Assembly: GCF_019740355.2 (NCBI RefSeq)
Contig: NZ_CP091819.1
Location: forward strand, 1,426,001-1,490,000
Length of the DNA: 64,000 bases
Direction: 5' to 3'
DNA from: Paracrocinitomix mangrovi
GTDB lineage: Bacteria; Bacteroidota; Bacteroidia; Flavobacteriales_D; Crocinitomicaceae
The notes under the pieces are model-generated. The model did no database searches. It was not told the DNA's origin and saw only the letters and a program-made list of their open reading frames with translations. Position numbers and translations under genes: made by a program. Positions within the stretch are counted from its first letter, which is position 1. The number at the start of each line of letters is the position of its first letter. Shown here in pieces: positions 14,373-14,894 of this stretch.

Positions 14373-14379
14373 TTTTTGA

Positions 14380-14412
14380 TAGATATTAGATCTTAGATTT
14401 TAGACGTTAGAC
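14380..14412. repeat. TTAGACA heptad array, left arm of four-helix cassette
   Basis: Five consecutive degenerate 7-mers read on the plus strand: ATAGATA, TTAGATC, TTAGATT, TTAGACG, TTAGACA. An inverted counterpart lies at 14858-14885. Bases 14394-14411 match the reverse complement of 14868-14885 at 16 of 18 positions. Confidence 0.7.
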
Positions 14413-14472
14413 AATTCTAATTGGATTATTGTCTATGATCAAATTAAACCTTTAAACCTTAATTTATTTTTA

Positions 14473-14501
14473 CAAATTTAATTTTCTACTATTGACTTCA
14501 A
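14473..14501 (-). promoter_or_regulatory. eno promoter
   Basis: On the minus strand, TTG (14501-14499), 18 bp, then TAAATTTG (14480-14473) gives a full match to the Bacteroidetes -33/-7 consensus. It lies directly after the four-helix-bundle gene, inside the region bounded by the inverted heptad arrays, and would give eno a leader of about 95 nt containing one of those arrays. Confidence 0.65.
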
Positions 14502-14506
14502 GGAAT

Positions 14507-14857
14507 TTAATCTAATGAATTCCTAAATCCCCGAATCATTTTTTGAATTTCATTTAATTTTTCAATATAAAATTCATGTTGATCTGAACTTAGCAAATCA
14601 ATCTCATATGCAATTATTAACTGATTCTCTAATTCACAAGCCGACCCTTGGGCAATATCCAAATACCGTTGAAAATCTTTAGTTGAACTTCTCCCTGCCC
14701 CTTCAGCAATATTGGATGGAACTGAAACCGCACTTCGAACTATTTGGGATGACAAACTATACTTGTACTCATCAGAGAAGTTTTTAGAAACCAGAATAAT
14801 CTCTTTACTCAAATCCTTTGATTTCTTCCAAATATTTAATTCTCTAAAATTGTGCAT
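14507..14857 (-). CDS. four-helix-bundle protein (S23/TIGR02436 type)
   Basis: A 116-residue all-helical protein of the family first known from 23S rRNA intervening sequences and related to the Avd accessory protein of diversity-generating retroelements. Signatures are NFRELNIWKKSKDLSKEI at the start, SQIVRSAVSVPSNIAEGAGR in the middle, and GSACELENQLIIA. I start it at the ATG at 14857 (MHNFREL); an upstream in-frame ATG at 14878 would translate the heptad repeat itself. It sits between carA and eno in the same direction and is enclosed by inverted heptad arrays. Biological role unknown; nucleic-acid binding is often suspected. Confidence 0.85.
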   Translation of the reverse strand: MHNFRELNIWKKSKDLSKEIILVSKNFSDEYKYSLSSQIVRSAVSVPSNIAEGAGRSSTKDFQRYLDIAQGSACELENQLIIAYEIDLLSSDQHEFYIEKLNEIQKMIRGFRNSLD

Positions 14858-14886
14858 TAGTCTAAATTCTAATGTCAAAAATCTAT
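14858..14886. repeat. TTAGACA heptad array, right arm of four-helix cassette
   Basis: On the minus strand four 7-mers, ATAGATT, TTTGACA, TTAGAAT, TTAGACT, run straight up to the start codon of the four-helix-bundle gene and serve as its leader. The array is inverted relative to 14380-14412 and begins about 10 bp after the carA stop. Confidence 0.7.
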
Positions 14887-14894
14887 TCTCTTTA

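Follow-up and report, generated by a model that had tools for sequence, protein, structure and literature searches.

What is a gene for a small helical protein doing between the genes for carbamoyl-phosphate synthase and enolase, and why is it bracketed by two inverted arrays of 7-bp repeats (heptads)? The locus lies in a stretch of 64,000 nucleotides from Paracrocinitomix mangrovi (contig NZ_CP091819.1, positions 1,426,001 to 1,490,000), the whole of which we call the window. The gene belongs to the S23 / 23S rRNA-IVP family of four-helix-bundle proteins. An earlier, sequence-only reading of the locus had suggested that it is a small inserted element encoding a single helical protein, and this is supported by empty sites in relatives and by the linkage of S23 genes to such arrays elsewhere. 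Beyond that reading, the layout spans many phyla, and gene-less arrays and hairpins exist. The S23-heptad element as such is well supported; the mechanism of its mobility we infer. The link joins two open questions, one about the role of S23/IVP proteins and the movement of intervening sequences (IVSs) in rRNA, the other about the origin of heptamer repeats, both of which could be addressed with a single purified protein and its DNA. The very common 'four helix bundle protein' family can be placed in the same context.

The S23 element between carA and eno

The element and its surroundings are as follows.
14507..14857, minus strand: S23 / 23S rRNA-IVP four-helix-bundle gene, 116 aa, ATG at 14857 (PF05635, TIGR02436)
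14858..14886, minus strand: 5′ arm (in gene orientation), a heptad-like array that abuts the S23 start codon and is inverted relative to the 3′ arm
14380..14412, minus strand: 3′ arm, a period-7 array of TTAGAYN-like units on the plus strand, reading towards the gene
14895..15995, minus strand: carA (carbamoyl-phosphate synthase small subunit), upstream neighbour of S23, from Pfam/NCBIfam profiles
13095..14372, minus strand: eno (enolase), downstream neighbour of S23, from Pfam/NCBIfam profiles
14473..14501, minus strand: candidate promoter site, of the Bacteroidota kind, in the stretch from S23 to eno

The gene order on the minus strand is carA, S23, eno, and the profile matches confirmed the identities that had been read for the two neighbours. 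The S23 protein matched PF05635 at 127.2 bits (cut-off 33.8; model positions 1-105 of 106) and TIGR02436 at 120.5 bits (cut-off 24). Its bracketing by inverted 7-mer arrays, as first described, also held. In Tandem Repeats Finder the array at 14380-14412 scored 36 at period 7 (14380-14404) and 43 at period 14 (14380-14411), and its period-7 score was reached by none of 5000 dinucleotide shuffles of the flank. The two arms form an inverted repeat of 27 nt (14379-14405 / 14860-14886, 81%), with a best stretch of 18 nt (14394-14411 / 14868-14885, 89%), which is the 16/18 match of arm cores already reported. Only 6 of 2000 shuffles of both actual flanks reached the arm-to-arm match score. Between the carA stop codon and the nearer arm there are 8 bp, and between the other arm and the eno start 7 bp, in agreement with the earlier estimate of about 10 bp.

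No ORF (open reading frame) of at least 60 aa other than S23 was found on the coding strand of the element, so it has no transposase gene of the insertion sequence type. In Pfam and NCBIfam, its protein gave S23- and Avd-type matches only, with no RAYT-type gene, and it had no match in the phage collection. An Rfam scan of 12900-16200 found no family at its gathering score. Among solved structures, a relative of the window protein is 2gsc (XCC0516; E = 2.1e-18), from Xanthomonas campestris according to a reference title. This entry and a second solved relative, 2rld, each contain five chains.

The sequence-only reading had also suggested a promoter at 14473-14501 that now drives eno. The site is present. 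Its pattern (TTG-N18-TAnnTTTG on the minus strand) occurs 5 times in the window, where 2.3 are expected, and 8 of 100 shuffles had as many sites. The site is therefore no evidence of function, and the proposed driving of eno was not supported.

Inverted arms around S23 genes

In the window's genome, eight PF05635 matches, seven of them above the cut-off, lie at eight places. By eye, seven of these eight genes are bracketed by inverted 7-mers, each time with a different heptad. For a wider comparison we used 157 S23 loci: these eight, 29 further loci and another 40 from the same bacterial family, and 80 named loci from many phyla. Seven were dropped for short flanks or Ns, leaving 150. To score arms, the 200-bp 5′ flank was aligned locally with the reverse-complemented 3′ flank, and a best match score of at least 18 counted as arms. 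Arms were found in 89 of the 150 loci, as against 4.8% of mismatched flank pairs, and 94 loci lay above z = 3 relative to their own shuffles. In the loci measured, elements are about 0.42-0.55 kb long, with arrays of 7-bp, sometimes 8-bp, repeats.

Earlier controls had given 35/329 (a first gene control) and, in a gap-matched control, 15/94 for arms and 17/94 for arrays. The array matches of the latter all sat in S23 loci (17/47, versus 0/48 in random stretches and the window), many of them adjoining S23-sized ORFs, and a profile search of the same loci revealed 17 further S23 genes, of which 12 had arms. The controls were therefore redone with genes of these loci that lie 600 bp or more away from every S23 gene. 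With these clean controls, 23 of 292 reached the threshold, as compared with 89 of 150 for S23 (odds ratio 17, Fisher p = 3e-31). When only one locus per site was counted, 57% of 69 sites passed. Genes whose best match was bAvd had arms in 0 of 8 cases, versus 14 of 22 S23-best genes in the same search. These comparisons bear out the predicted linkage of S23 genes to inverted heptad arms. The flanking motif is not always the TTAGACA named in the earlier reading: the heptad is locus-specific, varying between loci and tending to match within a locus.

Outside Bacteroidota, as classed by record title, 11 of 17 loci passed, including loci from Ignavibacteriae, Caldilineaceae, Planctomycetales, Thiobacillus, Gallionella, Imhoffiella and Opitutales. 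The arm layout recurs in Cyanobacteria, Proteobacteria, Chloroflexota and Planctomycetes. S23 genes were present on 18 plasmid records, 17 of them cyanobacterial. Among 10 plasmid loci (nine cyanobacterial genera and strains), six were at z above 6 and three were without a score; the seventh locus with a score had z = 2.2 and a perfect 15-bp inverted match. For example, (GGGAACA)n faces (TGTTCCC)n in Nostoc sp. C052, and (GGGAGTA)n is found in N. edaphicum. On two cyanobacterial plasmids (loci L289 and L291), the S23 gene, with heptad arms in both cases, lies between cas6 and cas4; in L289 a type I-D cas1d follows. Close pairs or triples of S23 genes are frequent (L343 on G146 C55; G195 C5, G203 C5 and G087 C1), and an additional S23 gene was nearby in 16 of the 157 loci.

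Period seven and strand polarity

Self-match in S23 flanks peaked at lags 7, 14 and 21 (1.198, 1.124 and 1.131 of expectation), as compared with 1.038, 1.015 and 1.043 in controls. A strict array threshold (score of at least 16) yielded no period-7 array in non-coding samples of eight genomes of the family; a filtered, lower threshold was therefore used. It gave 117 period-7 arrays in 62 kb of S23 flanks drawn from many genomes, but elsewhere in non-coding DNA only 1 in the 50.8 kb sampled from the four of those eight genomes that carry S23, and 0 in the 28.1 kb from the four that lack it. Period 8 was also enriched (29 versus 2 and 0). For periods 5, 10, 11 and 13, S23 flanks showed no enrichment over other non-coding DNA.

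The heptads have a preferred strand. A clear heptad could be read in 118 of the 133 loci that have arms; among these, the 5′-arm strand carried AGA in 46 and TCT in 4, TAG in 35 and CTA in 5, and G and C in a ratio of 227 to 80. The arrays are therefore polarised relative to the gene, as terminal inverted repeats are, and the polarity points inward.

Arm matching at shared sites

Of the 157 loci, 100 fall in 18 shared sites. The largest of these comprises 35 loci between a gene resembling that of 3-hydroxyacyl-CoA dehydrogenase, which we label fadN, and a thiolase gene (the fad site). By record title, they come from Flavobacteriia, Pedobacter, Algoriphagus and Saprospiraceae. At the fad site, arms of the same locus matched each other with a mean score of 18.8, as compared with 12.5 for arms from other genomes at that site. 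The mean rank of a locus's own partner was 5.1, where 17 is expected (n = 35), and the own partner was the best match in 11 of 35. Own and cross matches scored 17.1 versus 12.1 at site 1 (n = 13) and 22.7 versus 14.5 at site 2 (n = 9), so that arms match within the locus in three of the four site groups. Comparison of close locus pairs by eye revealed gains or losses in the arrays, several of them in multiples of 7 bp. The S23 protein at shared sites is under purifying selection, with dN/dS of 0.04-0.26 in 12 pairs, for some of which dS was saturated.

Empty and filled sites in relatives

An enolase search of sixty genomes of the family gave matches in 55 and returned 30 loci, including that of the window. 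The carA gene was immediately upstream of eno in all 30, which bears out the earlier statement that this adjacency is common. S23 was present only in the window's genome (gap of 522 bp) and in one congener, which we call G026 (455 bp). The other 28 gaps were too short for an S23 gene: 106 bp and 113 bp in two congeners, G042 and G004, and −4 to 124 bp in the other 26. The check for empty sites thus came out in favour of an inserted element. The S23 copy of G026 has one in-frame stop, and its arms, by eye, are built from another heptad. By parsimony, S23 was gained at carA-eno within the genus and then decayed in one member. A sequence of about 110 bp common to the two empty congeners could not be recognised by eye in the window's gap, and this was therefore not a clean insertion into that sequence. 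By eye, two S23-free gaps (G059 and G031) contain heptad-like arrays of their own.

The fad site occurs in three states. A search of 60 family genomes with thiolase matched 49 and returned 30 loci, of which 11 had S23 and 15 lacked it; the remaining four were unassessable because their flank did not include fadN, although two of these do carry S23. Among the S23-free sites, four had clean gaps of 6-11 bp (G026, G025, G018 and G003) and five had gene-less, heptad-like hairpins (G004, G038, G027, G052 and G028). Shuffles equalled the hairpin in 0 of 200 cases for each of the first four and in 3 of 200 for G028. No significant hairpin was found in the fad gaps of G011, G039, G020 and G012. The two remaining relatives, G057 (0/200 shuffles) and G042, have another type of hairpin in this gap (loci L347 and L373), rich in C/G runs and resembling CCCCCTTTGGAGGGGG; the 639-bp gap listed for G042 is an artefact and arises from the position at which the match starts. 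Between the window's genome and G026, the difference at the fad site extends exactly from the stop codon to the next ATG; in this one clean pair, no target-site duplication was seen by eye at the fadN-thiolase junction.

On the S23 tree, the fad-site label changes 9 times relative to rows of other named sites, where at least two changes are forced, and 17 times when all 157 rows are included, with many forks of the tree unresolved. Much of this pattern may be due to vertical inheritance combined with losses, and repeated entry is possible too.

Gene-less arrays and S23 counts in genomes

The window itself contains two inverted heptad pairs without a gene, each in a gap of a ribosomal-protein operon.
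34047..34150: gene-less inverted heptad pair (TTTAGAC.. / ..GTCTAATGTC)
33067..33142: another such pair (AAAGAC.. / GTCTTTT..)

The former consists of arrays at 34047-34082 and 34115-34150, with the inversion seen by eye and the neighbouring genes recognised from their translations. In the latter, the array at 33109-33142 was detected by program and the left arm by eye.

An S23 match (E ≤ 0.001) was found in 157 of 198 genomes of the class, in 153 of them above the cut-off, with copy numbers up to at least 22 per genome. Arrays of (TTAGACN)3 were present in six genomes, each of which has 4-9 copies of S23, against the background of 157/198. The reversed control pattern is itself a heptad (CAGATTN), and its 11 genomes were added post hoc. 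Genomes with either pattern have a median of 8 S23 genes, as compared with 3 in the other 181, of which 41 have none (p = 8e-6; post hoc and uncorrected for relatedness).

Sixteen S23-free stretches around TTAGAC arrays, 12 of them from genome G135, were read by eye, and some of the inverted pairs among them share part of their loop sequence. In genome G000, a near-perfect array of about 19 TTAGACA/TTAGACT heptads lies at 1025.5 kb (L040, 3502-3635), where the nearest S23 gene within the 12 kb read is 5.8 kb off. The same genome has the same two heptad-like pattern matches at 742 kb and at 1307 kb (L049 and L050), which suggests a duplicated stretch or a mobile copy.

Possible action of the element and alternative explanations

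The explanation that we favour, with about an even chance of being right, is a widespread small element in which an S23/IVP gene lies between inverted, inward-polarised 7-bp arrays and the S23 protein bridges the arms, allowing them to be copied and the element to move occasionally. The protein would bind the heptad arrays of both ends and bring the ends together, and host replication or repair might then copy the sequence of one arm into the other. Now and then, such bridging might transfer the element to a different intergenic position, or do so in trans for a heptad unit that has no gene. The window copy would have entered the carA-eno gap within the genus, and its S23 gene is probably translated from the read-through transcript of the operon. 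The element would operate like a RAYT/REPIN pair without a recognisable transposase, and could be a free-standing cousin of the S23-bearing intervening sequences in 23S rRNA. A broader proposal, which we consider less likely than not, is that S23-heptad elements form a distinct class of self-propagating DNA. The S23 protein, with no recognisable catalytic domain, would maintain, copy and spread the arrays, and from this class would have come IVSs, gene-less hairpins of the heptad type, and the heptamer repeats found in Cyanobacteria, Xanthomonas, Beggiatoaceae and Bacteroidota alike.

Several observations weigh against the favoured explanation. In the window's genome only two of the eight S23 loci pass an inverted-repeat score of 18, and four pass the array threshold; 61 of the 150 loci in the full set lack arms at the threshold. 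Clean controls matched for gap and strand were few, and 4 of 29 passed. At site 3 there was no preference for the own partner (19.4 versus 20.9 for cross matches, n = 8), which counts against the generality of arm copying. The fad site is clustered on the S23 tree, with 9 changes as compared with 23.4 after shuffling when rows of other named sites are counted. Arm motif and protein identity are correlated at rho = 0.195, falling to a weak 0.089 once shared neighbours are excluded, a value that 15 of 500 permutations matched or exceeded. By eye, only about four of the 16 gene-less TTAGAC stretches (L327, L330, L334 and L342) are inward-pointing inverted pairs, and most of the others are arrays in a single orientation. 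The loci compared revealed no transposition event, target-site duplication or exact end, and an all-against-all blastn comparison gave no recognised near-identical copy at a new site among the matches listed. Binding of S23 to the heptads is something that we only infer.

The arms might act in RNA instead. They would pair in the polycistronic transcript, RNase III would excise the S23 piece, and the need for a stem would keep the arms complementary. In 124 of 144 loci, S23 runs in the same direction as the genes on either side (median gaps 64 and 61 bp). At a mean of −46.0 kcal/mol over 154 loci, the arm duplexes exceed shuffled duplexes (−34.1 kcal/mol) in stability by a wide margin. However, pairing is equally good on the antisense strand (−45.2 versus −33.0 kcal/mol shuffled), and mismatches between arms in 101 loci showed no excess of G-U-compatible changes (145 versus 150). 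DNA-level copying therefore fits better than selection on an RNA stem. Pairing would not need the strand polarity of the heptads either (46 versus 4). Rapid copying between the arms could mask selection on RNA; on balance we consider excision at the RNA level unlikely. A domesticated host gene, that is, a vertically inherited and immobile S23 regulator with the heptads as binding sites for itself or its operon, would agree with the purifying selection and with the 35 loci at a common fad site from Flavobacteriia to Saprospiraceae. Heptamer arrays upstream of genes have also been proposed as post-transcriptional sites (PMC4679880). A domesticated gene fits poorly with arms that are inverted and on both sides of the gene, with eight S23 genes at eight places in the window's genome, with the dispersed gene-less arrays of some genomes, and with the absence of S23 from 15 of 26 assessable fad sites and 28 of 30 carA-eno loci, and we judge it quite unlikely.

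Alternatively, the heptad arrays might be an independent family of slippage repeats, serving as landing sites into which S23 genes merely insert. Long gene-less arrays do exist, such as the one of about 19 units in G000 and the many one-orientation arrays in G135. But insertion into a direct array would split it into direct, not inverted, arms, filtered period-7 arrays are nearly absent from the other non-coding DNA sampled, and genomes with the searched heptad arrays are richer in S23 (median 8 versus 3, with the second pattern post hoc). This alternative appears improbable. As for chance in AT-rich intergenic DNA, the window's arm at 14858-14886 is only weakly periodic on its own (312 of 5000 shuffles reach its period-7 score). 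The shuffles, gene controls, non-coding array counts and bAvd genes nevertheless reject a chance origin, also with one locus per site, and leave it with next to no likelihood.

Comparison with known systems

The published systems are compared here on the basis of excerpts of the papers cited. S23-bearing IVSs occur in the 23S rRNA of Coxiella, Leptospira and others, with 'mobile genetic element' among the hypotheses for them, and their functionality and origin 'remain unclear' (PMC4990558). In these, as in the window, an S23 ORF lies between complementary ends that form a stem, and native sequence is replaced. The same paper describes tandem heptamers (GACAGAT), variable in number, just before an S23 start codon, which is the nearest published sign of an S23-heptad link in the material at hand. 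Those heptamers are on the 5′ side of one element, and the excerpt draws no general link. The window element differs in that it lies in a protein-coding operon, between carA and eno in a region without an Rfam match, has arrays in both arms, and belongs to a kind with up to at least 22 copies per genome.

In the window, as in published heptamer repeat families, tandem 7-mers stand in an intergenic gap, with a different, TTAGAYN-like unit. Heptamer tandem repeats of this type go by the name STRR. The TAACTGA repeats of Beggiatoaceae, Cyanobacteria and Bacteroidetes are likewise tandem 7-mers in gaps, with patchy spread and with indels mostly in 7-nt steps, for which 'no mechanism is evident' (PMC4679880). 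They are described as direct repeats of one heptamer, and the main text of that paper contains neither 'S23' nor 'four helix'. The GGGNATC arrays of Xanthomonas and Nostoc, interpreted as G-quadruplex repeats (PMC4692102), number in the hundreds, and some are inverted convergent pairs; the excerpt draws no link to S23, though the solved S23 protein XCC0516 is from Xanthomonas. The P6b stems of the Nostoc trnL intron also have 7-nt repeats in complementary arms, in two motif classes with shifts between them of unknown origin (PMC4476775). They lie inside a group I intron, and the excerpt mentions no S23 gene.

The bAvd proteins of diversity-generating retroelements (PF22296) are a homologous family. 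The window protein reaches 29.4 bits of the 40 required for bAvd and 30 of 80 for NF033474, and does not belong to Avd; bAvd-best genes also differ in having no arms. The term '23S rRNA IVP' appears in a figure legend on CRISPR association (PMC10910872). Among papers of the open-licence literature, judged mostly by the title or the start of the abstract, we recognised no other that links S23 or four-helix-bundle genes to heptads or inverted repeats.

REPINs are hairpin-forming doublets of inverted repeats, dispersed in gene-less copies and associated with a specific gene family (PMC3116915). Inverted arms flank S23 genes as well, and gene-less hairpins exist, but only about four of the 16 gene-less stretches noted above are inverted pairs by eye, and the repeat units differ in kind. 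The only protein of the S23 element is of the PF05635 type, in place of a RAYT transposase, and its arms are 7-bp arrays that differ between loci, whereas a REPIN is one conserved palindrome. Because it has no RAYT-type gene and does not lie in rRNA, the S23-heptad element is a member of neither class. By analogy, it may best be likened to the RAYT/REPIN pair in its operation and to the S23-bearing IVS of 23S rRNA in its content.
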